From contig JBFLYD010000023.1 of NCBI GenBank assembly GCA_040756905.1, positions 1-64,000 of the forward strand: a stretch of 64,000 bases of DNA. Direction: 5' to 3'. A program made the translations under genes and the position numbers. Positions within the stretch are counted from its first letter, which is position 1, and the number at the start of each line of letters is the position of its first letter. This DNA comes from Acidobacteriota bacterium. Lineage in GTDB: Bacteria; Acidobacteriota; Aminicenantia; JBFLYD01. A model generated the notes under the pieces. It ran no database searches. It was not told where the DNA came from and was given only the letters and a program-made list of their open reading frames with translations. This document shows, piece after piece, positions 4,744 through 54,384 of this stretch.

Positions 4744-6597
4744 TCAATCGAGAATTTCTTTGTATTTTTCTGGAAAATTCAATATTTTCTGGAAATAATC
4801 AATTTCAAACTCCTGACCTTTTATTCTTTCAAGGATTGATTTTACTATTCTCTTTTCTTTCTCTTCACCATGTTTATCTTTTCTGAACTTGTGTATTTCG
4901 ATTAACCTTAAATGGGCCCCAACAAAGTTTGGCTCTATTTCTATTGCTTTCCTGAAGAAATTTTCAGCTTTTTTATCCTCTCCTGTGACATCTAAAAAGA
5001 AATTCCCGAGGGCAAAGGGATAAAAAGGGTATTTTGGGTTGAGTTCCATCGCTTTTGTGTACCATAGAATAGTTTTTTGATAATTTTCTTCTGTTGGAAA
5101 CATTTTAAACAATGAAAAGTAAAGAAAACCCAGTTCACCAGCTGCCTCATTATATTTAGGATTTAACCTTAGAGCATGCTTAAATTTCTCATCTGCATAC
5201 GCTAAAATTTCAAGGTTTTTTGTCTGGATAAAAAATGAGCTGTAGATTTTACCTAAATCATAATGAAATCGAGCATTTAAAGGAGTCAAAAATATTGACC
5301 TCTTGATGTATTTTGTTGCATTTACTATATCTTTCTCTGCAAGGGCTTTGCCCGTTTTTTCATAGAAATAATAATATGTGGAAGCAGGAAAGGCAGCAGT
5401 TATAAGCCAGAGAAATATTAACGAAAACACGAGTGGTAATTTTTTCATTCTAAATTCTTTTCTTATCAACTCGGGTAATAAATTTCTTGTATTTTTAAGT
5501 ATTAAAGAAAGGAAAATCATTGAATACAGTGGAATTGACGGATGGAAAAAGCAATTTTGAAAGAAAGCATTTATAAAAATTGAAAGAAGAGCCAGATATG
5601 ACATAAGTATATATCCATTTTGGTCTTTCTTTATCGAGGGAAAAGTTTTTAGAATAAAGTAGACTATTCCGAAAAGAAAAACAAACCCTCCAATTCCCAA
5701 TTCTGCAAGGATTTCTAAATAATTATTATGGGCCTGTCTTGCAGCGATTCCATAATGGGCGATTAAGTTTTTGTTCGGGAATATATAAGGAGGCATTGCA
5801 TGGGGGAAATTGTTTGCTCCAACCCCAACTAATAGGTGATCTTTGAACATTTCAAGATCCATAAGCCAAATTTTAATCCTCGCAAAAGCAAATGGGTCGG
5901 ATTTTGTAAGCTCAAAGAAAAATTTTGAGAATGGGTTTGGAATCAAGAGAAGAAGGGCGATTAAAACAGGGACGAGAACTAAATATTTTTTATTTTTTAT
6001 GTAAATAAAGAGGAAAAGAAGCACAAAGAAACTCAGGAAGGCAGATCTGGATTTTACAAATAAAAGGGATACTGTCATAAAGAGGGTGAGCAGAGAATGG
6101 AGTAGTAAATTTTTCTTCTCATAAAATATTTTTATAATTCCTATGATAATTCCGAATAGCACAATAATTGCAAAATGATTGGGATTTAGAAAATTTGCAC
6201 TGGCTCTTAATTCATCCTTAATAAAATATTTTAACGTGCTATAAACTGATAATACGAATATTCCGAAGTAAGAGAAATCTACAAAAAATTTTTCCTCTCT
6301 TTTATTTAAATAAGAAAAACTCAGATAAGCAATAATTATGAATGTTAAATCAAGGATTCTGATTATCGATGGGTACTTATAGAAAGTAAAAAATGAAGAT
6401 AGAATAGAGAAAACTAATAAACTTAAAAAAAGTATATGAATTACATTTAACCTAAGTAAAAAGTTTTTCGATTTAATTTTTTTTGAAATGAAAAATAGAA
6501 TAAGTATTGAATATATAATGAAAGTTACATAGTCATATTTTCTATCGGGGAAGAAAAATACGGCAAGGCAAAATAAAATAATAAAAAAATAACTCAT
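4744..6597 (-). CDS. O-antigen ligase/polymerase-like membrane protein with TPR tail (second copy)
   Basis: This 617-residue protein has about a dozen membrane segments over residues 1-410 and a Wzy_C/O-antigen ligase loop around residues 235-300. That loop includes LVGVGANNFPHAMP and the downstream RQAHNNYLEILAELG. The C-terminal 180 residues are soluble TPR-like repeats (ALRLNPKYNEAAGELG, AMELNPKYPFYPFALG, AIEIEPNFVGAHLRL). Proteins of this plan polymerise glycans, ligate O-antigen or glycosylate pilins in the periplasm. The start overlaps the preceding paralogue by 4 bases. Which of those activities applies cannot be read from sequence. Confidence 0.82.
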   Translation of the reverse strand: MSYFFIILFCLAVFFFPDRKYDYVTFIIYSILILFFISKKIKSKNFLLRLNVIHILFLSLLVFSILSSFFTFYKYPSIIRILDLTFIIIAYLSFSYLNKREEKFFVDFSYFGIFVLSVYSTLKYFIKDELRASANFLNPNHFAIIVLFGIIIGIIKIFYEKKNLLLHSLLTLFMTVSLLFVKSRSAFLSFFVLLFLFIYIKNKKYLVLVPVLIALLLLIPNPFSKFFFELTKSDPFAFARIKIWLMDLEMFKDHLLVGVGANNFPHAMPPYIFPNKNLIAHYGIAARQAHNNYLEILAELGIGGFVFLFGIVYFILKTFPSIKKDQNGYILMSYLALLSIFINAFFQNCFFHPSIPLYSMIFLSLILKNTRNLLPELIRKEFRMKKLPLVFSLIFLWLITAAFPASTYYYFYEKTGKALAEKDIVNATKYIKRSIFLTPLNARFHYDLGKIYSSFFIQTKNLEILAYADEKFKHALRLNPKYNEAAGELGFLYFSLFKMFPTEENYQKTILWYTKAMELNPKYPFYPFALGNFFLDVTGEDKKAENFFRKAIEIEPNFVGAHLRLIEIHKFRKDKHGEEKEKRIVKSILERIKGQEFEIDYFQKILNFPEKYKEILD

Positions 6598-8219
6598 TTC
6601 TTTTTAATTTCCTCAATAAGAAATTTTTGTAAGTTTAATCTTTCTTTTTTGAATTCTTCTCTTGATGGAAAGAGTCTTTCAGCTTTATATATATAGAGAT
6701 AAGCTTCAATCAATTCTTTTCTTTGAAGAGAAAGATTGAAGAAATTTCGGTAGAGGGAAAACGAGTTAGGGTCAAGGTCAATCGCTCTTTTTAAATATTT
6801 ATATGAATTTTCTAAATCTCCTTTCTGAAACATAATCTCTGCAATTTTATTAAAAGTTTTTGGGTTGTAAGGATTTATTGAGTTCGATGCATTAAGTATA
6901 CTAAGGGCAGAATCATTATTTCTGTTCATAAGCCTCTCTTCTGCAAGGGAGTTAAGATAATTTGATACATTAATCCATATGGAAAAAACCGATATCAATA
7001 TGACCAAAAGAATAAAAATTTTTCTGGATAATTTATTTAGTTGAACGTAGTTTTGATTTTTGTTGAGAATCGAGAGAAGAAAAGCTCCTAAAAATCCCAT
7101 GCCTGGGAAAAAAATTCCGATGTCGATTAAATTGTAAGCTAAAAAAGCAAAAAACGTTGAAAGGTAAAATAGTTCATCTTTTGAGGAATTATTAGAATTT
7201 TTTATTTTCGAGAATAACCATGAAAATATAATCCCTATGAAAAGGATGCCCCCTAAAGCTCCTGTTTCTGCAAATATATGTAAAAATACGTTATGGGCAT
7301 ATTTTGAAAAGCTTTCTCCTCCAAGTGTGAATAGAGAAGAACCTATTCCATAGTTTCCCAGCCCGATTCCAAAAAATGGGCTTGAAAGAAAAATCTGTGC
7401 TGCAACCCTCCAGTTTGAAAGCCTCAAAAATAATGGTGATTCCTCATGGAAACTTGAAAATCTTTCAATTAAGATGATAAAAGAAATGACAATCACTATA
7501 AAAAGAAATAGAATCAGATTTTTATTCTTTCTTTTTTCAGAGAGTATGTAAAAAGCAAAGAGTCCGGTTCCAAGTTCAAAAGCAGCGCCAAAAGATTGGG
7601 TGAACATGATAAGTGGGAAAGAGAGAAGAATAATTATAATAGGAAAAAATTTTGAGAGTTTTCTTGTGCTTTGAGAAAAAAGCCTTCCGAGGGATATTAG
7701 AATAGTGACGGTAAGAAATGCTGCGAGAGCTGTGGGAAGTGAAAAAGTTGAAAAAACTCTTCCACTTTGAAGTCTGATTAAAGCAGCATTTTTGAAGAAT
7801 TCATTTAGGTTTTGATTTGAGATAATTTCTTTGATCGCTATGTCGAATAGAAAAAATTTCTGCAAAAAGCCATATATGATGATTGAAATCGCTGTAAATT
7901 CAAATACTATCAGAAGGGTTTTTTTCTCCGAGTTTATTAATAGAATGTAAGTTGAAATAATTATCAGAAAATAGGAAAAGAATTCCAGAGAAAAAAAGGT
8001 TTTATTATTGAAGAAAAATGAAAAAATTATCAGAGAAAAAAATAAAAATGCTTCTGAAAATTTTGGGATTAATATCTCTTTCTTTAAAATAAAGAAAAAG
8101 ATGAGAAGAAGAGGTATCAGAATTAATGAAAATGGTTTATTTTCAGGAGGAAAAAGAAGAAAAAAAGCAAAAATTAATGAAATACTTAATATGTTTAACG
8201 CATTTTTAAAAATTATCAC
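6594..8219 (-). CDS. O-antigen ligase/polymerase-like membrane protein with TPR tail (first copy)
   Basis: This 541-residue protein has an N-terminal multi-spanning part and a Wzy_C-type loop at about residues 265-320 (FFGIGLGNYGIG, then YAHNVFLHIFAETGALGG). It ends with TPR-like repeats from about residue 435 (LNASNSINPYNPKTFNKIAE, AIDLDPNSFSLYRNFF). It has the same plan as the next gene but is clearly diverged, so the pair probably arose by an old duplication or divides two tasks. It lies about 50 bases downstream of the pilin gene on the same strand, so pilin glycosylation is a possible role besides O-antigen ligation. Confidence 0.82.
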   Translation of the reverse strand: MIIFKNALNILSISLIFAFFLLFPPENKPFSLILIPLLLIFFFILKKEILIPKFSEAFLFFSLIIFSFFFNNKTFFSLEFFSYFLIIISTYILLINSEKKTLLIVFEFTAISIIIYGFLQKFFLFDIAIKEIISNQNLNEFFKNAALIRLQSGRVFSTFSLPTALAAFLTVTILISLGRLFSQSTRKLSKFFPIIIILLSFPLIMFTQSFGAAFELGTGLFAFYILSEKRKNKNLILFLFIVIVISFIILIERFSSFHEESPLFLRLSNWRVAAQIFLSSPFFGIGLGNYGIGSSLFTLGGESFSKYAHNVFLHIFAETGALGGILFIGIIFSWLFSKIKNSNNSSKDELFYLSTFFAFLAYNLIDIGIFFPGMGFLGAFLLSILNKNQNYVQLNKLSRKIFILLVILISVFSIWINVSNYLNSLAEERLMNRNNDSALSILNASNSINPYNPKTFNKIAEIMFQKGDLENSYKYLKRAIDLDPNSFSLYRNFFNLSLQRKELIEAYLYIYKAERLFPSREEFKKERLNLQKFLIEEIKKK

Positions 8220-9153: not shown

Positions 9154-10353
9154 TTAAAATTCACCGAGGAGCTTTATGAGGGGAAGGTACATCGAAATTA
9201 CAATGCCTCCTATCAAAATCCCAAGAAATACAATCATCGCAGGCTCTAAAAGAGATACAAGAGTTTGAACAGTTTTTTCAACTTCATCCTCATAGAATTC
9301 AGCTACTTTATCGAGCATTTCATCAAGAGCGCCTGTTTGTTCTCCTGCATTTATCATTTGCACTACCATTGGCGGAAATGTTTTGGTAACCTTTAATGAA
9401 TCACCAAGGGAGTTCCCTTCTGCCACAGACTCTCTTGACTTGTTTACCGAGTCTTCTATTATTGAATTTCCAGCTGTTTTTGATGTGATACTCATAGCTT
9501 CGAGCATTGGAACACCACTTGATATAAGAGTTGAAAGAGTTCTTGCGAATCTTGCTAAAGATATTTTTTTAATAAGCTCGCCAAAAACATAAATTTTAAG
9601 GATAAATGCATCCACAGTTCTTCTTCCTCGATATGTTTTATAGTATTGTCTGAATCCGAAAATTCCAGCAGTGATTATCAATATAAACAATAAAATATTA
9701 TTGGCGAAAAAATTGCTTAATGAGATTACAACCTGAGTGAAAAAAGGCAAAGAAGCCCCTAAATCTTGAAATAAATTTTTAAAAGCAGGTATTATTTTCC
9801 ATAAAATTAGGGAGAGGATGATAATCGCAACTGAAATTACTCCTATCGGGTAAGCCATTGCTGATCTAATCTGTCCCCTTAACTTTACAGATTTCTCCAT
9901 ATATGCAGAGATTCTCTGAAGAATCAAATCCAGATTTCCTGATGCCTCTCCTGATGCGATCATGTTGCAGTACAGTTCATTGAATATTTTTGGAAATTTT
10001 TTTAAAGCATTATTAAGAGTTGAACCTTCTTCAACACTTTTTTTGACTTCAAGAATTGCCTCTCTGAAATGCTTGTTGGTCTGCTGGGTTCCCAGGATTT
10101 CGAGGGATTGAACTATAGGAAGTCCTGCTGAGAACATTACTGCAAATTGTCTTGAAAGCACTGCTAATTCTCTTAAAGAAACCTTTTTTGGCAGGATGGG
10201 TGGGATAGGAAGCACTTTCTTTCTTTCAATGTTTATTGGAACTATTTGATCTCTGTGAAGAAGTTTTGAAACTTCTTCTATTGAAGAAGCAACTCTTTCT
10301 CCTTTTACAAATTGTCCGAATCTATTTCTTCCCTGCCAGGTATAAGTAGGCAT
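9154..10353 (-). CDS. pilC: Type IV pilus/type II secretion inner-membrane platform protein PilC (GspF)
   Basis: This 399-residue protein contains two copies of the T2SSF domain, at about residues 65-190 and 270-390. Each has the conserved pattern (LPIVQSLEILG with GNLDLILQRISAYME; VPMLEAMSITSKTAG with GALDEMLDKVAEFYE). Three hydrophobic segments at about 165-190, 215-235 and 370-395 place it in the inner membrane. It links the assembly ATPase to the growing pilus. Length is standard. It follows pilB and pilT on the same strand with short gaps. The gene could equally serve a type II secretion system; the adjacent pilT favours pili. Confidence 0.93.
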   Translation of the reverse strand: MPTYTWQGRNRFGQFVKGERVASSIEEVSKLLHRDQIVPINIERKKVLPIPPILPKKVSLRELAVLSRQFAVMFSAGLPIVQSLEILGTQQTNKHFREAILEVKKSVEEGSTLNNALKKFPKIFNELYCNMIASGEASGNLDLILQRISAYMEKSVKLRGQIRSAMAYPIGVISVAIIILSLILWKIIPAFKNLFQDLGASLPFFTQVVISLSNFFANNILLFILIITAGIFGFRQYYKTYRGRRTVDAFILKIYVFGELIKKISLARFARTLSTLISSGVPMLEAMSITSKTAGNSIIEDSVNKSRESVAEGNSLGDSLKVTKTFPPMVVQMINAGEQTGALDEMLDKVAEFYEDEVEKTVQTLVSLLEPAMIVFLGILIGGIVISMYLPLIKLLGEF

Positions 10354-10404
10354 TGTATCATCCCTTATGGTAAATTTTTAAAAAAATATTTTTTGAATTC
10401 CATC

Positions 10405-11526
10405 TCAGTATTTTTTCGGGTTGTATGAATGAGGAATTGAAGGAGCTTTCTGAACCGTGGTTCCCCTGTTGATTATATCGGATAGTTCATCAGGAAAATT
10501 GGATACTGATATAGCTGTTTCAAGGGAAATCAAACCCCTGAAATAAAGATTTGCAAGGGATTGGTTTAATGTTTGCATTCCAGATTTCTCCTGGCCAGTC
10601 TGCATAATTCCGTAAATCTGATGAATTTTATCTTCTCTTATTAAATTTCTGATCGCAGAGTTTGGAATGAGAATTTCCATTGCAAGGACTCTACCTTTTC
10701 CATCTACCCTCGGAAGAAGTGCTTGGGATAATATCCCTTCTAAAGTTAAAGCTAACTGGGTTCTTACCTGAGCTTGTTGATGGGGAGGGAAGATATCCAC
10801 TATTCTGTTTATAGTTTGAGCTGCAGAATTTGTATGGAGAGTTGCAAAGGTAAGATGACCTGTCTCTGCAATTCTCAAAGCAGATTCTACTGTTTCCAGG
10901 TCTCTCATCTCACCTATCAATACTACATCAGGGTCTTCCCTCAACGCTGATCGAAGGGCATTGGGGAAAGAAAGGGTGTCTGTATTCAATTCTCTTTGAT
11001 TTACGATTGCCCTTTTATGGGTATGGAGGTATTCGATTGGATCCTCAATCGTAAGAATATGAACAGGCCTTTCAGAATTGATTTTATCGATCATTGCAGC
11101 AAGAGTTGTGGATTTTCCTGAACCAGTTGGCCCTGTTACAAGAATCAATCCTCTTGGTTTATCGCAAAGCTTCGCCACATGAGCTGGTATTCCCAGTTGT
11201 TCAAAACTCCATATTTCATAGGGTATTCTTCTAAATGCGCCTGAAACAGCTCCTCTCTGATAGAAAATGTTTGCTCTGAATCTCGCAAGGCCCTTTATCC
11301 CGAATGAAAAATCTAGTTCCAAATTTTCTTCAAATTTATGCTTCTGAGCATCGTTCAGGATGGCGTAAATCAATTGTTTTGTTTCAACGGCAGTTAACGG
11401 AGGATGATCAAGAGACCTTAGATCTCCATGAAGCCTTATCTGGGGAGGAATATTGGGAGTTATATGAAGGTCAGAGGCTCCCATATCAACCATTATCTTT
11501 AATAATTCATGCATAGGTGCTGCCAT
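10405..11526 (-). CDS. pilT: Twitching motility/retraction ATPase PilT
   Basis: This 373-residue secretion ATPase has the Walker A motif GPTGSGKST (about residues 130-138), an Asp box ILTIEDPIEYLH, a Walker B-like DVVLIGEMRD and the His box HLTFATLHTNSA. The AIRNLIREDK motif near residue 290 is diagnostic of PilT rather than PilB. The N-terminal GASDLHITP is also typical. PilT powers pilus retraction in the cytoplasm under the PilC platform. It is 31 bases from pilB and 51 bases from pilC, in one apparent operon. Confidence 0.95.
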   Translation of the reverse strand: MAAPMHELLKIMVDMGASDLHITPNIPPQIRLHGDLRSLDHPPLTAVETKQLIYAILNDAQKHKFEENLELDFSFGIKGLARFRANIFYQRGAVSGAFRRIPYEIWSFEQLGIPAHVAKLCDKPRGLILVTGPTGSGKSTTLAAMIDKINSERPVHILTIEDPIEYLHTHKRAIVNQRELNTDTLSFPNALRSALREDPDVVLIGEMRDLETVESALRIAETGHLTFATLHTNSAAQTINRIVDIFPPHQQAQVRTQLALTLEGILSQALLPRVDGKGRVLAMEILIPNSAIRNLIREDKIHQIYGIMQTGQEKSGMQTLNQSLANLYFRGLISLETAISVSNFPDELSDIINRGTTVQKAPSIPHSYNPKKY

Positions 11527-11557
11527 TTTTTAATCCATTATTTTATCAATTTTATAA

Positions 11558-13279
11558 TCATACATTTATTGTCTCCCTTAAAACTTCTTCTATTGATGTA
11601 ATACCACTCTTAATTTTTTCAAGGCCACTTCTTCTCAAAGAAATCATCCCCTGGGAAATTGCTTTGTTTCTTATTTCTGAAGTGCTTGCCCCTGATATAA
11701 TCATTTCCCTGAGTTCTTCAGTCAATTCCATTACTTCGAACAGCCCTATTCTTCCTTTGTATCCAGTATCATTACATTCTGGACATCCCCTGGCTTTAAA
11801 AATGGTGATTTTTTCAATTTCATCAGGGTAAAATCCAAGGTCTATTAAAGCCTGAGGTGGAACCTGAGTTTCAGTTCTGCATTTTTTACATATCCTTCGA
11901 ACAAGTCTCTGAGCGACAATCAGATTGACTGATGTTGCTATAAGATAAGGTTCGATACCCATGTTTATTAATCTTGATATCGTTGTTGGAGCATCGTTTG
12001 TATGGACTGTGCTTAAAACAAGATGTCCTGTCAGAGCTGCTTTTATTGCGATATCAGCGGTTTCAAAATCTCTTATTTCACCCACTAATATTATGTTTGG
12101 ATCCTGTCTTAAAAAAGACTTTAGGCAGGTTGCAAATGTCAGCCCAATCTCTTCTTTTATCTGAACTTGATTTATTCCAAAAAGATTGAATTCTATCGGG
12201 TTCTCTGCTGTTAAAATGTTTATTTCTGGAGAATTAAGAGTAGAAATTGTAGAATAAAGAGTGTTTGTTTTTCCGCTTCCAGTAGGTCCTGTTACGAGTA
12301 TTATTCCCCAAGGTTTTTTTATTTGCTTTTCGAATTTTTCAAGGGAACTTAGTTCAAAACCAAGGGAACCAAGGTCGAGTTTTAACTGTTCTCTATCGAG
12401 TATTCTGATGGCAATTTTTTCTCCAAACATCGTTGGAAGAGACGAAACTCTCATATCAACTTCTTTTATGTTTTTATTCTGTGTCTTGATTCTAATATTA
12501 ATTCTTCCATCCTGAGGAAGTCTTTTCTCTGCTATATCCATTTTGGCTAAAATTTTTATTCTTGATATGAATGAATCTTTCATTCGATATGGTGGTGTCA
12601 TAACAGGATAGAGAATCCCATCTATCCTGTATCTTATCCTGAATTCTTTTTCATAAGGTTCCATATGGATGTCTGAAGCTCCCCGGTTAATGGCCTCTGA
12701 GATGATTAAATTAACAAGTTGGACAATTGGGCCTTCCTCAGATATTTTTTCCAAATCCACAAATTCATCTTTTGGTATTTCCTCTACCACTTGAATCTTT
12801 GCTGTGTCAAATTTCTTTGCTTTTTCTATCACCTTTTTAACTTCAACTTCATACAAGGAACCGTAATGTTTATCAATGGCTACCTTTAGAGCTGATTCTG
12901 GAGCAATAACAGGTTGTACATTTAAATTTGTTATGAATTTTACATCTTCTATCGCTGTAAGATTCGTTGGGTCTGACATTGCGACCGTAAGGATGGTTCC
13001 GATTCTGTGAATGGGAAGGATAATGTATTTTCTTGCAACATCTGCAGGAATGAGCTTTATAATTTCTGGTTCTACATCAAATTTAGAAATGTTTATCGCC
13101 GGATATCCATATTGTTTACTAAGTACATTTATGATCTCGTCTTCTGTAACAAAACCAAGTTTAAGGAGGGCACTCCCTAATTTTATCCCATTTTTTTTCT
13201 GATATTCAAGGGCTATATCAAGCTGCTCTTTTGTTATGAGTTTTTCTTTTAATAAAAAATCCCCTAATTTTACTCCCAT
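11558..13279 (-). CDS. pilB: Pilus assembly ATPase PilB (GspE family)
   Basis: This 573-residue protein starts with an MshEN/GspE_N domain (about 1-150, KLGDFLLKEKLITKEQL and KQYGYPAINIS). It is followed by the ATPase core with GASDIHMEPYE, Walker A GPTGSGKTNT (about residue 335), NILTAENPIEF, and the Walker B region IILVGEIRD with HLVLSTVHTND. A four-cysteine zinc site is present (CKKC and CPEC, about residues 475-520). Length and order match PilB/GspE that drives pilin polymerisation. It leads the pilBTC cluster and lies 26 bases after rph. Confidence 0.95.
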   Translation of the reverse strand: MGVKLGDFLLKEKLITKEQLDIALEYQKKNGIKLGSALLKLGFVTEDEIINVLSKQYGYPAINISKFDVEPEIIKLIPADVARKYIILPIHRIGTILTVAMSDPTNLTAIEDVKFITNLNVQPVIAPESALKVAIDKHYGSLYEVEVKKVIEKAKKFDTAKIQVVEEIPKDEFVDLEKISEEGPIVQLVNLIISEAINRGASDIHMEPYEKEFRIRYRIDGILYPVMTPPYRMKDSFISRIKILAKMDIAEKRLPQDGRINIRIKTQNKNIKEVDMRVSSLPTMFGEKIAIRILDREQLKLDLGSLGFELSSLEKFEKQIKKPWGIILVTGPTGSGKTNTLYSTISTLNSPEINILTAENPIEFNLFGINQVQIKEEIGLTFATCLKSFLRQDPNIILVGEIRDFETADIAIKAALTGHLVLSTVHTNDAPTTISRLINMGIEPYLIATSVNLIVAQRLVRRICKKCRTETQVPPQALIDLGFYPDEIEKITIFKARGCPECNDTGYKGRIGLFEVMELTEELREMIISGASTSEIRNKAISQGMISLRRSGLEKIKSGITSIEEVLRETINV

Positions 13280-16715: not shown

Positions 16716-17969
16716 TTAAATAAGACTCAGGATTTTATCGATTGTTTTTTCGGTTCCACCTTTAAGCGAGAGATATGTTTTGTATGCCCTTATTCCCATG
16801 CTTTTTAATTCTTCAGAATCAATTTTTTTGATAAAATTTACCAAGTCTTTTTCATTCTTTATCAAGATAGATGCTTTTTTCTTTAAAAAAATTTCTGAAA
16901 TATTCTTAAAATTAGACATATATTTTCCAAAACAGATAGGTTTGGAGTAGAAGGCTGGTTCAAGGATATTATGGCCCCCTTTAGACACAAGGCTTCCTCC
17001 AACAAAAACTCCATTTGAAATTGCATAGAATTTGCAAAGCTCTCCTATGGTGTTAAGAAGAAGGACATCATACTCTTTATTCTGGAATGAGGTTCTTGTT
17101 TTCATTTTTAATTTATATTTTTTTATTATTCTCTCAACCTCTTCGAATCTATTCGGATGTCTTGGAGCCAGAATAAGTTTCAAATCGTCATTAGCTTTTT
17201 TTGCTTTTAAATAAGCCTCAAGGATTGTATTTTCTTCTCCTTTTGAAGTACTCCCTGCAACAAAAATTTTTTTGCCCTTAAGGTTGAATTGACTTTTAAG
17301 GATTTCAATTTCATTTTCTGTAAAAAATGGAAATGCAGTGTCAGCTTTGAGGTTTCCAGAGATTTGCAGTTTTTCTTCAGAAATTCCAAGTATTTTATAC
17401 TTATTGTATGTTTCATTATCCTGAACGAGAAAGTAATCGATTTTGTTTACTATAGGTTTTATGATAGACTTGAAAAAATTAAAATATTTAAAAGTTCTAT
17501 CACTCATCCTGCCATTTATCAGCAAAATCGGTATATTACGTTTCCTTGTTTCCAAAATAAGAGTTGGCCATATTTCATTTTCTACAAGGATTAGTATATC
17601 AGGAGAGATGAAATTTAAATATTTTTTAACAGAGAACCTGATGTCAAGGGGCGAGAAAAAAATTTTTTTTATTCCACTCAATCTTTCCGTTGCTACCTGG
17701 TATCCGGTTTGAGTTGTGGTTGTTATATATACGTCAAATTTCCCTAACTCTTTTATTTTTGAAATAATGGGGCTTGTAAGGAGTACTTCTCCGAGAGATA
17801 CAGCATGAATCCATATTCTTTTTTTTTCTTTTTTGTCTTTTTTTAAATTGAAACCCAGCCTTCTCAAAAAAACTGGAAATTCCTTTTTCTTGAGGATTTT
17901 GTTGCACAGGAAATAGGGAAATGAAAGGAATAGTAGCAGGAGATAAATTAATTGCCATAGCATTTCCAT
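16716..17969 (-). CDS. waaA: Kdo transferase WaaA (KdtA)
   Basis: The ATG at 17969 (MEMLWQLIYLL) is chosen over the upstream ATG at 18008, because an AAAGG ribosome site precedes it and a possible -35 box overlaps the longer frame. The protein has an N-terminal anchor and the family motif WIHAVSLGEVLLTSPI. The C-terminal GT-B half contains VAGSTSKGEE, LILAPRHPNRFEEVE and GGHNILEPAFYSKPI. The enzyme adds Kdo to lipid IVA from CMP-Kdo. The neighbours lpxK and the acyltransferase confirm the pathway. Confidence 0.93.
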   Translation of the reverse strand: MEMLWQLIYLLLLFLSFPYFLCNKILKKKEFPVFLRRLGFNLKKDKKEKKRIWIHAVSLGEVLLTSPIISKIKELGKFDVYITTTTQTGYQVATERLSGIKKIFFSPLDIRFSVKKYLNFISPDILILVENEIWPTLILETRKRNIPILLINGRMSDRTFKYFNFFKSIIKPIVNKIDYFLVQDNETYNKYKILGISEEKLQISGNLKADTAFPFFTENEIEILKSQFNLKGKKIFVAGSTSKGEENTILEAYLKAKKANDDLKLILAPRHPNRFEEVERIIKKYKLKMKTRTSFQNKEYDVLLLNTIGELCKFYAISNGVFVGGSLVSKGGHNILEPAFYSKPICFGKYMSNFKNISEIFLKKKASILIKNEKDLVNFIKKIDSEELKSMGIRAYKTYLSLKGGTEKTIDKILSLI

Positions 17970-17976
17970 CAAGCCT

Positions 17977-18005
17977 TTTTTATTAAATTTGTAAAGAGAT
18001 GTCAA
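17977..18005 (-). promoter_or_regulatory. Possible promoter for the waaA operon
   Basis: On the minus strand a perfect TTGACA lies 17 bases upstream of TAAAAA, with the preferred waaA start about 7 bases beyond the -10. The -10 is weak and the 5' leader would be very short, so this is tentative. It is nearly back to back with the promoter at 18010-18038. Confidence 0.3.
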
Positions 18006-18009
18006 CAAT

Positions 18010-42357: not shown

Positions 42358-43071
42358 ATGAGTAAAGATTCAGAGGTTAAGATAAATGGAAAAGAAATTG
42401 ACGTTAATGAAATCATGGATACGATAAGGAAAAGAATTGAAGAGAGAAAAGCAAAAGGAGTAATGGTTGAAAAAGATTTGGAAAAAATTGAAGAAGCAGA
42501 ATTGAAGCCATGGGCTGATCATATGGAGATAATGAGTTTTTATGAACAACACATTTTTCCAGAATTTGAAAAAGAAACAGAAGAGGATACATCATTGACC
42601 GAAGTTCCTGAACCAGAATCCGGTGAGATTGAAGCTTCGAAAAGAATGGAGGAAGAAGAAAGAGTTGAAACCCAGATACCTGAGACAAGAGGAATAAAAA
42701 GTTTAATAAAAAAATTTTTTAGAATACCATCTCCACTTATTAGCCATTTTTTCATGTTTTACATGAGGCCTTATTTTCTTTCTCTCCAGCATGGGATTGA
42801 ATCTTTGCAATCTGCTTTACAGGATAATGTTAACTCAATTATTAACAATATTAATTCTATAAATCGTTCAATTGAATACATAAGAAGAAATTCTCAGAGG
42901 TCTGTGGAATATATCAAATTATTACACAATCTTTCGAACAACCTGGTTGTTGAAATAAGTAAGCTAAAAGTAGAGGTTGATTCATTGAGAAATAGAATAA
43001 TTACCCTTGAGAACAAAGTGGAACTCGTGGAAAAAAGAGAAAGGATTCTTGAGGATAAGATAAGAGATTAA
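42358..43071 (+). CDS. Coiled-coil protein at the head of a glycosyltransferase cluster, unknown
   Basis: The ATG at 42358 follows a perfect AGGAGG and gives 237 residues. The N-terminus KINGKEIDVNEIMDTIRKRI resembles short N-terminal segments (I-D-V-x-E-I-M..I+..I) that I have seen in proteins of O-antigen clusters. A central acidic linker (about 75-115) is followed by a short hydrophobic patch (FFMFYMRPYFLSL). The last 90 residues are a long amphipathic coiled coil (NSIINNINSINRSIEYIRRN, then VEISKLKVEVDSLRNRI). It probably acts as an oligomerising scaffold or chain-length/assembly partner for the four transferases. That role is inference. Confidence 0.6.
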   Translation: MSKDSEVKINGKEIDVNEIMDTIRKRIEERKAKGVMVEKDLEKIEEAELKPWADHMEIMSFYEQHIFPEFEKETEEDTSLTEVPEPESGEIEASKRMEEEERVETQIPETRGIKSLIKKFFRIPSPLISHFFMFYMRPYFLSLQHGIESLQSALQDNVNSIINNINSINRSIEYIRRNSQRSVEYIKLLHNLSNNLVVEISKLKVEVDSLRNRIITLENKVELVEKRERILEDKIRD

Positions 43072-43189
43072 GAGAATTTACTATTACGTAAAAATATTTA
43101 GAATGTTTCTTAAAGGCATACCAGTATTTAAGGCTTTTATTATACTAAAGAGTTAAGGTTAATAACCGATGAGAAATAAATGAGAGCAG

Positions 43190-44371
43190 ATGAGTAAGTT
43201 GCAGGTTGCTTTTGCTGTTCAGAGGTATGGGTTGGAAGTAAATGGAGGAGCTGAACTTCATGCCAGACTTGTAGCCGAACATATGAATAGACACTGGGAG
43301 ATACAAGTTTTAACATCCTGCGCCCTTGACTATATCACATGGAGAGATTTTTATAAAAAAGGCATTGATAGGGTTAATTCGATTAAAATTTTAAGATTCC
43401 CGGTGAGAAAAGAGAGAAACCTTGAGAGATTTGCTCGAATCCAGGAAAAAATATTTCAGAACGAACACAGTGTTTCTGATGAAATAGACTGGATAAACGA
43501 AAATGGTCCCTACTGTCCAGATCTCATAAAATGGCTGGAAAAACACAGAAATGATTTTAATTATTTTATTTTTTTTAGTTACAGATATTATCATTCATAC
43601 TGGGGGATAAACTCTATTCCTGAGAAAAGTATTCTGGTTCCAACGGCAGAGCATGATGAGGTTCTTTACATGAGGGTTTTCAGGGATATTTTCAAAAATG
43701 CGAGAGGGATTATTTACAATTCATTAGAAGAAAAAGAATTGATAAACAATATTTCTAAAAATTTTGATGTTCCTTCTGACATAGTAGGTTTAGGAATAAA
43801 CAAGTTTGCTGATATAAATCCTGAAAGATTCAGAAAAAAATACAGGATAGAGGATGAGTTTATCGTATATGTAGGAAGGATTGATGAGAATAAGGGATGC
43901 AAAGAACTTTTCGAATATTTTTTAGAATATAAAAAAAGAAAAAAAGGTAATGTAAAATTAATCTTAATTGGAAGTCCTGTGATGAGAATTCCCCAGAACA
44001 AAGATTTAATCTATTTAGGTTTTATTCCAGAAGAGGATAAATGGGATGCTCTTGCAGCTTCTTCGTTTTTAATAATGCCTTCATTCTATGAAAGTCTATC
44101 GATTGTAACATTAGAAGCATGGGCAGCAGAAAAACCTGTTCTTGTTAATGGTAAATGTGAAGTTTTAAAAGGGCAGGCTTTAAGGTCAAATGCTGGCCTC
44201 TTTTATACAAATTATGAGGAATTCGAAGAATGTATGGAATTTTTATTGAAAAATAGAGACTTTAACATTTCCATGGGGAAAAACGGGAAGGAATATTATG
44301 AGAATAATTACAGATGGGAAATCATAGAGTCCAAGTATTTGAAACTGATTGAAAGAATAACGGAGACTTGA
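43190..44371 (+). CDS. GT4-family glycosyltransferase, subtype A copy 1
   Basis: This 393-residue GT-B enzyme begins VAFAVQRYGLEVNGGAELHA and has the donor-binding half VYVGRIDENKGCKELFEYF. The GT4 E-x7-E region is PSFYESLSIVTLEAWAAEKP. It is clearly paralogous to the gene at 46502: both have the start QRYG-E, the DYI-W-FYK-G segment and a long HSV-DEI-W-E-GP stretch. It starts 118 bases after the coiled-coil gene, with a GAGCAG-type weak ribosome site, and overlaps the next gene by 4 bases. Sugar and acceptor unknown. Confidence 0.85.
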   Translation: MSKLQVAFAVQRYGLEVNGGAELHARLVAEHMNRHWEIQVLTSCALDYITWRDFYKKGIDRVNSIKILRFPVRKERNLERFARIQEKIFQNEHSVSDEIDWINENGPYCPDLIKWLEKHRNDFNYFIFFSYRYYHSYWGINSIPEKSILVPTAEHDEVLYMRVFRDIFKNARGIIYNSLEEKELINNISKNFDVPSDIVGLGINKFADINPERFRKKYRIEDEFIVYVGRIDENKGCKELFEYFLEYKKRKKGNVKLILIGSPVMRIPQNKDLIYLGFIPEEDKWDALAASSFLIMPSFYESLSIVTLEAWAAEKPVLVNGKCEVLKGQALRSNAGLFYTNYEEFEECMEFLLKNRDFNISMGKNGKEYYENNYRWEIIESKYLKLIERITET

Positions 44372-45444
44372 ATTTGAAAGGTATTCATCAGATATTAACC
44401 TCTCTTACGTATGGAGATGCAATTTCAGATGAAGCATTGGAAATAATGAGAATAGTTAAAGAACAGGGCCTCCAGTCATACATATTTTCTTACTATTTCC
44501 ATCCTAAAATGGCCCATCTGCGATATAGAAAAGAGGATTTTTTTGGTATGGTGTCTTCTGATGACATCTTAGTATTCCATTTTTCAATAGGTTCTCCCAT
44601 TTCCTCTCTTTATCTTTTCTCTCGCCAAAAAAAGATTCTAATCTATCATAATATAACCCCCTATGAATATTTTATAGATTATCAAAGGGATTTAGCTAAA
44701 TTTACATACCTTGGAAGAAAAGAACTGGAAAAGTTCGCTCCTGTTACTGACCTTGGTCTTGGAGATTCTTCATTTAACAGAGAGGAACTCGAGGCCTCTG
44801 GATACAGAAAAACAGGTGTTCTTCCTGTGATAAGAGATTTTTCAAAGTTTGATAAGGCTGAAAATGTTTCAATTGAAAAAATCTATAGGAATAAGAAAAC
44901 AACTATTATTTTTGTAGGAAGAATTATACCGAATAAAAAATTCGAAGATTTAATAAGAGTTTTTTATCTTTATAAGAAAATGTATAACCAGAATTCCCAG
45001 CTAATACTTATCGGAGAGCATGGTGGCTTTGAGAGATATTATTATTCTCTTCTAAATTTAATCGAAGAATTAAAATTAAAGGATGTAATTTTTCCAGGAC
45101 ATGTTACTTTTGATGAATTGAGCTCATTCTACAGGATTTCAGATTTGTTTCTCTGTCTGAGTGAACATGAAGGATTTTGTGTGCCAATTCTTGAGGCTTT
45201 CTATCATAGAATTCCAGTTATTGCATTCAATTCAAGTGCTGTTTCTGAGACGATGAATGGTGGTGGGACTTTAATTGAAAATAAAGATTATGAATTCATC
45301 GCTTGTCTAATCGATGTAATTATAAATAACGAAGAATTAAGGGATAAGATAATCAAATCTCAGGATGAGGCGATGGAAAAGTATAAAATGGAAAAATTAA
45401 AAAATGTATTTCTTGGTTATATAGATATAGTAGAAAATACATGA
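44368..45444 (+). CDS. GT4-family glycosyltransferase, subtype B copy 1
   Basis: This 358-residue GT-B enzyme contains GDAISDEALEIM near the N-terminus, ILIYHNITPYEYF, and the donor half IIFVGRIIPNKKFEDLIRVF. The active-site side is LSEHEGFCVPILEAFYHRIPV, with the E-GFC-P--EA pattern of GT4. It is a close paralogue of the following gene (shared GDAI-DEA, IYHN-TP-E-F, LSEHEGFC). The start is a TTG overlapping the previous stop (TTGA). The cluster probably builds an oligosaccharide in ordered steps. Confidence 0.85.
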   Translation: MNLKGIHQILTSLTYGDAISDEALEIMRIVKEQGLQSYIFSYYFHPKMAHLRYRKEDFFGMVSSDDILVFHFSIGSPISSLYLFSRQKKILIYHNITPYEYFIDYQRDLAKFTYLGRKELEKFAPVTDLGLGDSSFNREELEASGYRKTGVLPVIRDFSKFDKAENVSIEKIYRNKKTTIIFVGRIIPNKKFEDLIRVFYLYKKMYNQNSQLILIGEHGGFERYYYSLLNLIEELKLKDVIFPGHVTFDELSSFYRISDLFLCLSEHEGFCVPILEAFYHRIPVIAFNSSAVSETMNGGGTLIENKDYEFIACLIDVIINNEELRDKIIKSQDEAMEKYKMEKLKNVFLGYIDIVENT

Positions 45445-46505
45445 TTATAAATCAATTACTACCTGCACTTCATAAAGGAGATGCTATTGGTGATGAAGCA
45501 TTTTATCTAAAAGATTTTTTTAAAAGTAATGGGTATCAATCAGAAATTTATGCTATTGATATTGATTCTGAGATTTTATATCTGGGGAAGTCGGTCAAAT
45601 CATTTCCCGATCCATCAGAAAGAGATACAACAATTCTTCATTACGCAATCCCCTCCCCTTTAAATGAGTTAATCAAAAGGGTAAAAGGAAAGAAAGTAAT
45701 TATCTATCACAATGTAACTCCGGAAGAATTCTTTGTCGATTTTTCTAAAGAAATGGTTAACATAGCGATAGAAGGAAAAAAACAATTGAAATCATTAATG
45801 AATTATATCGATTTAGTTTTTGCAGACTCTTTTTATAATAAAATTGAGTTGGAAAATGTAGGATTTAAAAATGTTCAATTGTTGCCTCTTTTTATAAATT
45901 GGGAAAAATATGAATTAAAGCCGGATGAAAATATTATCGAGTTATTTTCTGATGAATTTGCCAACATTCTTTTTGTAGGAAGAGTTGTTCCAAACAAGAA
46001 AATAGAAGATTTGATGAAAGTGGTGGCTTATTATAAGAAGTTTATCTCACCCCTTGCCAGACTTTTTGTTGTGGGAAAAATTCACTCCTGCAGAGAATAT
46101 TATTATTCTCTTCTGAATTTAATGGGAAAATTGGAATTGACCAGAGATAATCTGATCTTTTTTGATCATGTCCCTGATAATGAGCTTTTCGCCTTATATC
46201 AAATTTCTGATGTATTTCTCTCAATGAGTGAGCATGAGGGATTCTGTCTTCCGTTGATTGAGAGCATGATTTTTGATTTGCCTGTTATTTCCTATGACTC
46301 TACAGCCATTCCATATACATTAAATGGAGCTGGTATTTTATTCAATCAAAAGAATACACAGGTTGTAGCAGAACTATGCAATTTAGCTATTGAGAATATG
46401 GAATTAAGAGAGAAAATCCTGAAAACCGAGAGGGAGAGGCTAAATGAATTTAAAAAGTTAAATATTGGAGAAATAATTTTAAACAAATTTAGAGAAATTT
46501 TATGA
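45441..46505 (+). CDS. GT4-family glycosyltransferase, subtype B copy 2
   Basis: This 354-residue protein is paralogous to the upstream gene. It has INQLLPALHKGDAIGDEAFYL, VIIYHNVTPEEFFVDFSKEM, the donor-site strand NILFVGRVVPNKKIEDLMKV, and MSEHEGFCLPLIESMIFDLP. The ATG overlaps the previous stop (ATGA). The two adjacent B-type enzymes may add successive identical or similar sugars, or be a recent duplication that is diverging. No signal peptide or membrane segment is seen, so it acts on the cytoplasmic side. Confidence 0.85.
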   Translation: MIINQLLPALHKGDAIGDEAFYLKDFFKSNGYQSEIYAIDIDSEILYLGKSVKSFPDPSERDTTILHYAIPSPLNELIKRVKGKKVIIYHNVTPEEFFVDFSKEMVNIAIEGKKQLKSLMNYIDLVFADSFYNKIELENVGFKNVQLLPLFINWEKYELKPDENIIELFSDEFANILFVGRVVPNKKIEDLMKVVAYYKKFISPLARLFVVGKIHSCREYYYSLLNLMGKLELTRDNLIFFDHVPDNELFALYQISDVFLSMSEHEGFCLPLIESMIFDLPVISYDSTAIPYTLNGAGILFNQKNTQVVAELCNLAIENMELREKILKTERERLNEFKKLNIGEIILNKFREIL

Positions 46506-47665
46506 GAGTGGCTTTTATAATTCAAAGGTATGGGAAAGAAGTACTGGGCGGCTCAGAATCTCTCTGCAGGGCAGTGGCTGAAAATTTATACAGGAGAGGA
46601 GTTGACATAGAAGTTTTTACCACCACTGCAAAAGATTACATTAGCTGGAAAAGATTCTATAAAGAAGGGGAGAGTGTATTAAATGGAGTATTAATTAAAA
46701 GATTTAACCCCGAAAGAGAGAGGAAAATAGGAGAGTTTAACAGATTCAGTGACTGGATATTTTCCAATCCGCATAGCGTTGAAGATGAAATTAGATGGCT
46801 GGAAGAGCAAGGCCCTGTAGTACCAGAATTGATAAAAAATTTAAAAGATGAGGAGTCCAATTTTGATTTAATAGTTTTCTTTACCTATCTATACTATCCA
46901 ACATATTGGGGGTTGAAAAATATAGGGAGAAAGAAAGCTCTTGTTTCAACTGCCCATGATGAGCCTCCATTATATTTAGAAATCATGAAAGATGTGTTTA
47001 AAATTCCTGATGGATTTATTTTTCTTACTGAAGCTGAAAAAAATTTAGTTAATGAAAAATTTATCTTGAGCAATAAACTAAATGATGTAATCGGGATGGG
47101 AATTTCTGTATCAAAGAATATAAACCACCTCCACTTCAGAAAGAAATATTTTATTTTTTCCCCCTTTATCCTTTATTCAGGGCGTATTGATAAGGGAAAA
47201 GGTCTTGGAGAGCTTTTTGATTATTTTATAAAATTCAAAAAGAAATACTATCCGATAACTCTTGCATTGATTGGGAATCTTTCAATGAAATTACCTAATG
47301 ATCCTGATATAAGATATTTAGGTTTTCTCTCTGAGGAGGATAAATTAAATGCGATTGCTTCATCAGTATTGACGATACATCCATCTCATTTAGAAAGTTT
47401 TTCAATATCCGCTCTTGAATCTTTAAGCCTCGGAATCCCTATTGTAGTTCAGGAGAGAACCAAGCCTCTTGTGGAGCATTGTAAAAAGAGTAATGGAGGG
47501 TTATGGTATTCTGATTATGAAGATTTCGAAGAAGTTCTCAATTTATTGTTGAAAGAACATAAACTAAGGAACACCCTCGGTGAAAACGGGAAAAAATACA
47601 TAACAGAAAATTTTTCCTGGGAAAAAGTTTGTTCAAAATGGAAAGAGATTTTTAGAAAAATTTAA
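46502..47665 (+). CDS. GT4-family glycosyltransferase, subtype A copy 2
   Basis: This 387-residue paralogue of the first transferase has VAFIIQRYGKEVLGGSESLC, KDYISWKRFYKEGES, the donor half FILYSGRIDKGKGLGELFDY and the GT4 region PSHLESFSISALESLSLGIP. The ATG overlaps the previous stop. Its stop TAA and the dnaE stop on the other strand share one TTAA palindrome, so the two genes converge with no space between. It closes the A-B-B-A array. Confidence 0.85.
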   Translation: MRVAFIIQRYGKEVLGGSESLCRAVAENLYRRGVDIEVFTTTAKDYISWKRFYKEGESVLNGVLIKRFNPERERKIGEFNRFSDWIFSNPHSVEDEIRWLEEQGPVVPELIKNLKDEESNFDLIVFFTYLYYPTYWGLKNIGRKKALVSTAHDEPPLYLEIMKDVFKIPDGFIFLTEAEKNLVNEKFILSNKLNDVIGMGISVSKNINHLHFRKKYFIFSPFILYSGRIDKGKGLGELFDYFIKFKKKYYPITLALIGNLSMKLPNDPDIRYLGFLSEEDKLNAIASSVLTIHPSHLESFSISALESLSLGIPIVVQERTKPLVEHCKKSNGGLWYSDYEDFEEVLNLLLKEHKLRNTLGENGKKYITENFSWEKVCSKWKEIFRKI

Positions 47666-52774: not shown

Positions 52775-53596
52775 TTAAAAATGATTTAAAATTTTCTCAT
52801 GAAATGAGCAAAATTCCGTAGGAGATTTCAATTGACATTCTATCATTTCTTCCTGCCAGTGAGCATTGAATAGCCTGCAATGTCTATTTTTACAGAAGGG
52901 GTTTCCTAAGAGATAATAGAATAACGCTTGCATCACATATCCTTTTACTATTTCATTGATAGCAGGATCTCCATAATCAATGAATCTGCCTTTAAACCTT
53001 TCTTTTAATTCTTTCATCCTGTCTTCGTTGTACAATGCCTGCTTTAAGATATAATATTCTCTTGGCTTTGCGGGCGCTTCCACGATGCCTGTCAGCGAGA
53101 TTATCGAAGGGAAACCATAAACACTTGTTCTCAAATGATATCTTCTATCCCTGTAGTCCCATGTTACTATAAGCTGGTTTGTAAAAATCACATGGAGATA
53201 GTTAAGATTTCTCTCTTTTTCAGGGATAAGTTCATGGAAAAAAGATTGAAGTTTAAACCCCTCATAAAGCAACCCTGAAATTTTTTTAGATGTTTCTTTT
53301 ATATTTTTTATCTCAAATCTGATTTCTTGAAGAAGAGGCTCAGTTTCTTCATGAAGTCTTTCAATGTTTGAAACCCTCAGACTTGCCATTTTTTTAGAGA
53401 GAAAATCAATCATATTTTCTTTTTTTGATTGGAAATTTTTGGAAAGAATGTTATCGAAAAAATCTGGTCTTTTTTCTATAGATTTTGACGTTTTTCTTTT
53501 TAGATACTGAAATATCTCTTCAATATTGAATTCTTTACAACTTTTCTCATCGTAGAGGATTATAAATTTCGGATTCAGGATAATATCATTTATCAT
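52775..53596 (-). CDS. Unknown protein with C-terminal Cys/His cluster, paired with Thi4
   Basis: This 273-residue protein has no signal peptide or membrane segment. The N-terminal half is helical and charged. The middle has [20 protein letters not shown] and [19 protein letters not shown]. Near the end [20 protein letters not shown] and [15 protein letters not shown] place Cys235, Cys240, His246, Cys254, Cys263 and His266 close together, a likely metal site. I recall similar tails in archaeal and bacterial proteins labelled DUF6775, but cannot confirm the match. Its start overlaps the thi4 stop (ATGA), so a link with thiazole, sulfide or metal handling is a fair inference. Confidence 0.6.
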
Positions 53597-54384
53597 CCTT
53601 TTTCTAAAATTTCCATTATCATCTCAGCGCATCTTTTTCCAGAGAGAAGCATGGCTCCAAAAGTGGGACCCATTCTTGGTAACCCATAAGTGGTGGTTAC
53701 CGCCATTCCACATACTACAAGTCCTGGATAGGCTTCGCCTGTATGTTCTACTACAAGGTCTTCTGATCTTTCTACCCACATGGCTCCGAACCCTTTTGTT
53801 TTGAAGAATCCCCTCTCTTCTAATTTTTTTACTACCACAGCATCGTGACCTGAGGCATCAACAACTATTTTTGCTTCAAGACCTACAGGGTCAACGCATG
53901 TTATTTCTCTCGGAAGAGCAGTAATAGGTGTCCAGTTTACCACGACTCCACCAACCTTCCCATTTTCTTTTAGAATAATGTCATCAAATATTGTCATATT
54001 GGCAAATTTAACTCCTGCATCGCAGGTAGAAGCGATTAGTTTTGAACAAGCATGGGGGCCATCTGCCACATACAGCCCTTCAGAAGCTTTATCAAAAGGA
54101 ATTCCCAGTGCTTTGAGAATTTCCTCGCCAGGTGCCCTTACAGTAACTTTATTCATTAGGTATCCACCAATCCAGAATCCTCCACCAAGATAGTTATTTC
54201 TTTCAATTATTAGCACTTTAATTTTCCGGGAGGAAAGCTCCTTACCGGCCATGAGACCCGAGGGACCTCCTCCTACAATAATGACATCACTTTCAACATA
54301 TTCTGTAAATTGTTTAAGAAAGCTCTCAGTTATTGCCCTTGTTACTTCTTTCTCTCCCACGGGAAAGAATTTTATTTTTTCCAT
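53593..54384 (-). CDS. thi4: Thi4-family thiazole synthase with Cys at the sulfur-donor position
   Basis: This 263-residue protein has the Thi4 fold markers: FAD/NAD-binding [18 protein letters not shown] (about 33-50), an [14 protein letters not shown] loop, [10 protein letters not shown] and [16 protein letters not shown]. The C-terminal [20 protein letters not shown] is also conserved. Thi4 makes the thiamine thiazole from NAD and glycine. In eukaryotic Thi4 the sulfur comes from a Cys just before (M/V)DP, while methanogen enzymes have His there and use sulfide. Here ITCVDP gives Cys163. It is coupled to the unknown downstream gene. A strong GGAGAGGAG ribosome site precedes the ATG. Confidence 0.88.

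Follow-up and report, generated by a model that had tools for sequence, protein, structure and literature searches.

Coiled-coil proteins are described as membrane-associated scaffolds for glycan assembly complexes in one report (PMC11231755), and according to another, WbdD recruits WbdA and Wzt recognises terminated chains (PMC3482155). Here, we analysed a set of five genes of an Acidobacteriota bacterium (class Candidatus Aminicenantes), in which a coiled-coil protein (CC) precedes four GT4 glycosyltransferases of two types (A1, B1, B2, A2; Table 1). The window, by which we mean the whole stretch of DNA analysed, comprises 64,000 nucleotides. We see roughly an even chance that CC is a membrane-docked scaffold and that the four GT4 enzymes act sequentially to build a conserved glycan, which is exported by an ABC transporter and linked to LPS.

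The set is flanked by thiE, which was identified by domain search, and by a gene convergent to A2, which we take to be dnaE from a look at its sequence. Neither polymerase nor flippase genes are present within the cassette. An earlier interpretation, made from the letters of the window without database searches (the sequence-only reading), had described every junction as a 4-base overlap. This is true for the three junctions between the enzymes (TTGA for A1/B1, ATGA for B1/B2 and B2/A2), but CC and A1 are separated by a gap of 118 bases. In many relatives, CC and the next gene overlap by four bases. In the window, an overlap of this length was also found between A2 and the convergent gene. Exact 4-base overlaps are common within the window (13 of 44 co-directional junctions) and thus, the overlap on its own means little. 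In its other parts, the earlier description of the locus as a whole mostly holds.

Table 1. Position and assignment of the five genes and of one additional LPS gene in the window
Gene	Position	Strand	Description
CC	42358..43071	+	237 aa; no family over cut-off; scaffold-like
A1	43190..44371	+	GT4 glycosyltransferase, 393 aa
B1	44368..45444	+	GT4 glycosyltransferase, 358 aa; starts with TTG; overlaps A1 by 4 bases
B2	45441..46505	+	GT4 glycosyltransferase, 354 aa; overlaps B1 by 4 bases
A2	46502..47665	+	GT4 glycosyltransferase, 387 aa; overlaps B2 and the convergent gene by 4 bases each
KdtA/WaaA (Kdo transferase)	16716..18008	-	Context only; LPS genes in source genome; phyletic marker

At other positions of the window, two adjacent Wzy_C proteins (O-antigen ligase family), the first of which involves TPR repeats, are encoded at 4744-8219 and adjoin a Glycos_transf_4 (WecA-like) gene and a GT2 gene. 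The region 52775-54384 carries a DUF6775 protein, a probable metallopeptidase, which adjoins a presumably Thi4-like gene (label from a look at the sequence).

All four enzymes matched Glycos_transf_1 above the Pfam cut-off and all of them have kept the E-x7-E motif (residues 301 in A1, 268 in B1, 266 in B2 and 298 in A2), which is in agreement with their earlier assignment to GT4. Two unlike pairs of paralogues in a symmetric A-B-B-A arrangement had also been proposed. When we aligned the sequences, we found that A1 and A2 share 42% identity (164/388) over their full length and that B1 and B2 share 37% (124/337). The matches across the pairs were far weaker (BLAST E of 2e-09 for A1 and B1, involving the C-terminal half only, and of 0.011 for B2 and A2) and therefore, the proposed pairing is correct. 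Within each pair, the two paralogues probably form linkages that are related but not the same. A structural model of A1, the sole enzyme modelled, showed a GT-B fold (pLDDT 94.5). Its nearest PDB structures, with 10 to 17% identity in the fold alignments, include GlgM as well as sucrose-phosphate synthase, MshA, PimB' and WaaG. With the latter four A1 has the GT-B fold and the E-x7-E motif in common, but these fold neighbours do not indicate the donor sugar.

The conservation of the set was explored in 60 genomes of the class, including the source genome. CC was present in 45 of them, A-type and B-type enzymes in 48 each; both types occurred together in 47 genomes and both were missing in 11. 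From the class, 40 CC loci were fetched and their domain order was determined (profile matches below 20 bits were ignored, and L085-L087 of a further set of loci were left out). The complete order CC-A1-B1-B2-A2 was found in nine of these loci (in L043, A2 is cut by the contig end, and in L071, CC is cut). CC-B1 alone was observed in 23 loci, all of which belong to families f2 and f6, and here the A1 and the B2 or A2 copies are usually located elsewhere, often as B2-A2 or B2-B2-A2. Four loci read CC-A1-B1-B2, with an A2-like gene located elsewhere, two have an inverted A1, one lacks A1 and one ends within A1. In three loci of family f2 (L091, L092, L094), B2 and A1 have an additional A-type enzyme between them, which is divergent (26 to 29% to A2). 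A profile scan of contigs with the CC alignment hit at least 28 records and among the matches listed, 22 are titled Aminicenantes, five Acidobacteria or Acidobacteriota and one Bacterium only.

At the level of the phylum, the B2 query matched 91 of 396 genomes, class-mates counted. Twenty further acidobacterial families were represented by a single locus each, the loci being picked for having B, and we found the full five-gene order in 16 of them. As to the remaining loci, L180 lacks A1, L171 and L179 read B1-B2-A2, and L185 has distant relatives only. The full order was also present in all three named Acidobacteria records (L134, L136, L137). The further flanking genes outside the class are presumably housekeeping genes for the most part, as named from a look at their sequences. 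The sequence-only reading had considered that the cluster might not be conserved in relatives; these data indicate that its order recurs across families of Acidobacteriota and since it recurs, the A-B-B-A gene set is more than chance.

The phylogeny of the enzymes also bears out the two pairs. In the class (the 40 loci and the window, with 29 A and 57 B rows, the dispersed copies of L075-L109 being left out), A1 is separated from A2 by a supported branch and so is B1 from B2. When the outside loci were included (A and B fragments of less than 250 residues and the f6 B1 rows except L040, L044 and L046 were left out), the B1|B2 split (48 and 39 rows) was clean with an SH-aLRT of 99, and the A1|A2 split (37 and 32 rows) had two exceptions. 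One of them is the L178 row at the A2 position, which we read from this position as mislabelled by the domain call, and the other one is the A-type row of L185, which forms a divergent long branch. Both duplications are therefore older than the divergence of the families sampled.

These findings bear on the simplest alternative explanation, according to which the cassette consists of ordinary variable O-antigen genes that were duplicated by happenstance in the source genome. The relatives of B that we detected on plasmids were all distant, A had one relative there, which is full-length but also distant, and CC had no match among plasmid sequences. The B-type homologues (below 31% identity), which would fit this explanation, are located in polysaccharide gene clusters of Pseudomonadota, one of which also carries GDP-mannose dehydratase and ABC transporter genes. 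However, one-to-one orthologues across families, a constant gene order and housekeeping flanks do not suit variable genes. A variable O-antigen cluster was ruled out on the basis of orthology and conserved order, and we give this explanation next to no probability.

CC did not match any Pfam or NCBIfam model above the cut-off, which is consistent with its previous description as an unrecognised protein. The likeness of its N-terminus to proteins of O-antigen clusters, which the sequence-only reading had suggested, is at most a lead, and plasmids gave no match for a CC protein. In the 40 loci, an N-terminal module of some 70 residues is followed by a linker, a basic amphipathic stretch, a spacer of varying length and a conserved C-terminus of about 55 residues. 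The N-terminal module carries the motif IDVxEIMxxIxxRI (in its longer form IDVxEIM..I..RI..KK, further on LPDI.D...VYE..L), and the C-terminal consensus reads ..EYIKLLHN..N..VE.SKLKIE...LK.KI..LE...EFLE.RER..EKK. For residues 111-128, an amphipathic character with a net charge of +5 and a hydrophobic moment of 0.75 was computed. A single-chain AlphaFold2 model (18 sequences; mean pLDDT 75.5, pTM 0.33) involves one predicted helix (residues 126-236), in which the block pLDDT is at least 93 from residue 141 onwards. The N-terminal module forms a separate ORF, roughly 70 to 80 residues long, immediately before a second ORF in several families (L047, L060, L072 and others), and many CC proteins outside the class (L172, L175, L176, L181-L187) carry a long C-terminal tail with an arginine run.

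The spacer, which corresponds to residues 126 through 189, varies between 28 and 95 residues across 41 CC proteins. This variation might be a ruler-like feature; an inspection of the spacer lengths by eye for increments of 7 or 11 residues was judged uninformative. A terminator or catalytic domain was not matched by Pfam or NCBIfam models in CC of the window, L173, L134 and L169. Filing CC as a chain-length ruler of the WbdD type was rejected since it lacks a terminator.

In the source genome, contig C43 carries a Wzm/Wzt pair with Wzt_C and ABC2_membrane above the Pfam cut-offs. Among the class genomes, Wzt_C was present in 45 of the 48 B-positive ones (exceptions G017, G032, G050) and absent from 11 of the 12 B-negative ones (exception G023). 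Over all 60 genomes, agreement with B was reached in 56 for Wzt_C, in 53 for KdtA and in 52 for LpxC. Wzm was located beside Wzt in all 14 Wzt loci fetched and in ten of them, a cytidylyltransferase-like gene follows the pair. L207 carries a stand-alone Wzm-Wzt pair together with such a gene at 9648-12196. Several Wzt loci adjoin genes which we take to resemble those of ATP synthase subunits. CC, A and B genes were not detected in the 14 loci except for a weak 44-bit match of the B2 profile in L211, and in the loci fetched, the cassette and Wzm/Wzt never occurred together. Thus, of the two hallmarks of an ABC-transporter-dependent pathway, Wzm/Wzt is present in the genome, but the glycosyltransferase genes are not clustered with it.

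Seven markers (CC, A, B, UbiA, Wzt_C, KdtA and LpxC) are all absent from ten genomes that belong to genera g4 and g18 of family f4, and G045, which also belongs to f4, has all seven. In the phylum sample, three further genomes of genera g4/g18 (G378, G399, G411) lack B and PF04413 (KdtA). The absence of LpxC and KdtA from the ten genomes points to an LPS-free clade within the Aminicenantes. These ten genomes also contain few GT4 matches (4 to 9 vs. 17 in the source genome), and their GT9 numbers are low, too. G059 has KdtA and LpxC, and CC, A, B, UbiA and Wzt_C are missing. Its family-mates G007, G019 and G032 also lack a UbiA match, so that only the absences of the module and of Wzt count for G059, and with 89% completeness of this genome both could be due to chance. 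The shared absences are few events, namely one ten-genome clade and G059.

The same patterns have to be weighed for a second explanation, according to which the four enzymes build a non-repeating LPS core on Kdo-lipid A, each adding one sugar, with export by MsbA and CC as scaffold. Single-copy conserved enzymes among housekeeping genes suit a core better than a variable O-chain, and the loss of the set along with LpxC and KdtA in the ten f4 genomes, a cassette without polymerase and flippase, and WaaG as structural neighbour of A1 point in the same direction. However, a core should be present wherever the lineage makes LPS. Here, we found that G059 has kept LpxC and KdtA although the entire set and Wzt are missing, for which reason the LPS core was demoted from first choice. 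Moreover, 278 of 363 KdtA-positive Acidobacteriota lack B, and thus the set cannot be a general core. Phylum-wide, PF04413 was found in 85 of 91 B-positive and in 278 of 305 B-negative genomes, which means that the set is not associated with KdtA at this level (Fisher p 0.67). GT9 enzymes, which are present in 57 of the 60 class genomes, are other candidates for core enzymes. Taken together, we consider a core function rather doubtful.

Outside the class, the gene of a UbiA-type phosphoribosyltransferase is located upstream of CC in 13 of the 20 loci, either next to it or, in five loci, separated from it by DUF362 only, and UbiA is also found upstream of CC in L134, L136 and L137. In the source genome, the single UbiA-type gene is directly followed by DUF362 on contig C47 (L201 9375-11349), apart from the cassette, and this UbiA matched the NCBIfam model NF008977 (decaprenyl-phosphate phosphoribosyltransferase) with 269 bits (cut-off 234). 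In five B-positive class genomes (G007, G019, G032, G033, G052), a UbiA match was missing. In L206, a UbiA-like gene and a DUF362-like gene are followed by two large proteins, one of them with a YfhO match. Among the loci fetched for the module, nine class loci carry a sulfatase-fold gene that is at most two genes away from CC or A1 and shares their strand, and a GTPase gene, which matched TIGR00231 below the cut-off only and which we take to be MglA-like from a look at the sequence, follows A2 in nine class loci.

From this context a third explanation arises. The genes may serve another envelope glycan or glycolipid (a protein O-glycan, an exopolysaccharide or a UbiA-tied pentose glycolipid), and their co-absence with the LPS genes would then reflect envelope remodelling. 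UbiA of the decaprenyl-phosphate phosphoribosyltransferase type upstream of CC outside the class, the UbiA-DUF362 pair of G002, behind which two large proteins are encoded (YfhO was matched by one of them), and the general scarcity of GT4 genes in the f4 clade are in line with such a function. On the other hand, B matches the Wzt_C pattern across the class genomes, and the sulfatase-fold gene near CC or A1 suits decoration of LPS equally well. Thus, we regard this explanation as unlikely.

If the scaffolded, ABC-exported and LPS-linked glycan is considered again, the five genes would encode the unit that assembles, in the cytoplasm, a single conserved glycan of the acidobacterial cell surface. 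CC would dock to the inner membrane via the basic amphipathic segment and would gather the four GT4 enzymes with its long C-terminal helix, which presumably forms an oligomeric coiled coil. A1, B1, B2 and A2 would add sugars in succession onto a lipid-borne acceptor, the stand-alone Wzm/Wzt exporter would carry the product out and this product would be joined to LPS. A Wzy polymerase and a Wzx flippase would not be needed because of the proposed export through Wzm/Wzt. The UbiA-type phosphoribosyltransferase and DUF362 may supply polyprenyl-phosphate-pentose for the same glycan. Gene order, ancient paralogy, GT4 motifs, helix prediction, the linkage of UbiA and DUF362 and the shared absences are directly supported. 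From them we infer that CC docks to the membrane and recruits the enzymes, and likewise the order in which these act, the sugars, the acceptor and the export route, and this applies to every step that leads from the gene pattern to biochemistry.

The sequence-only reading had suggested a compact, undescribed module for oligosaccharide assembly. As to the module, the conserved order is in its favour, and as to assembly, the suggestion was deduced from the enzyme family only. We found no description of the cassette in the open-access literature, which is weak evidence of novelty since subscription journals were mostly outside this search. The module is probably not self-contained, and the UbiA-DUF362 pair and Wzm/Wzt look like partners encoded elsewhere in the source genome.

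That a major phylum of soil and subsurface carries a conserved, ordered enzyme set along with a scaffold-like protein points to a common surface glycan and makes the cassette a clean system to learn how a scaffold orders glycosyltransferases. In a more far-reaching interpretation, which we offer tentatively and with less confidence than the scaffold model, a sizeable part of Acidobacteriota might possess a fixed glycan machine consisting of four mirror-order GT4 enzymes derived from two ancient duplications, a terminator-less scaffold, a UbiA/DUF362 phosphoribosyl-lipid branch and stand-alone Wzm/Wzt. This machine might produce an O-chain or outer-core glycan that is invariant and inherited vertically, the composition or length of which would be set by the scaffold and the four dedicated enzymes. 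O-chains are usually encoded by some of the most variable gene sets of Gram-negative bacteria. If true, such an invariant glycan would contrast with the strain-variable O-antigens of model Gram-negatives.

When compared with known systems, the UbiA of the source genome resembles Rv3806c/UbiA of mycobacteria (PMC10994848) in that it matches NF008977 and that its homologues precede the cassette in other families. It differs from the mycobacterial enzyme by its linkage to GT4 enzymes and DUF362 and by its occurrence in a Gram-negative phylum. The WbdD-WbdA systems of E. coli O9a and K. pneumoniae O3 (PMC3482155, PMC11231755) share with our locus a predicted coiled-coil protein with an amphipathic segment beside glycosyltransferases, an ABC exporter of the same genome in which Wzt carries the C-terminal domain and a cassette without Wzy polymerase. 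Unlike WbdD, CC carries neither a methyltransferase nor a kinase. In addition, the glycosyltransferases are four separate single-domain proteins, the exporter is unlinked, and in contrast to the serotype-specific WbdD-WbdA systems, the genes are conserved across families. In the O4 and O7 complexes of K. pneumoniae, the glycosyltransferase modules are likewise located on separate polypeptides and a coiled-coil protein serves as membrane scaffold (PMC11231755). However, the coiled-coil protein of these complexes bears the terminator (a GT137 Kdo transferase or a methyltransferase-kinase), whereas no catalytic domain was found in CC, and for this reason we liken CC to the WbdD-type proteins rather than filing it with them.
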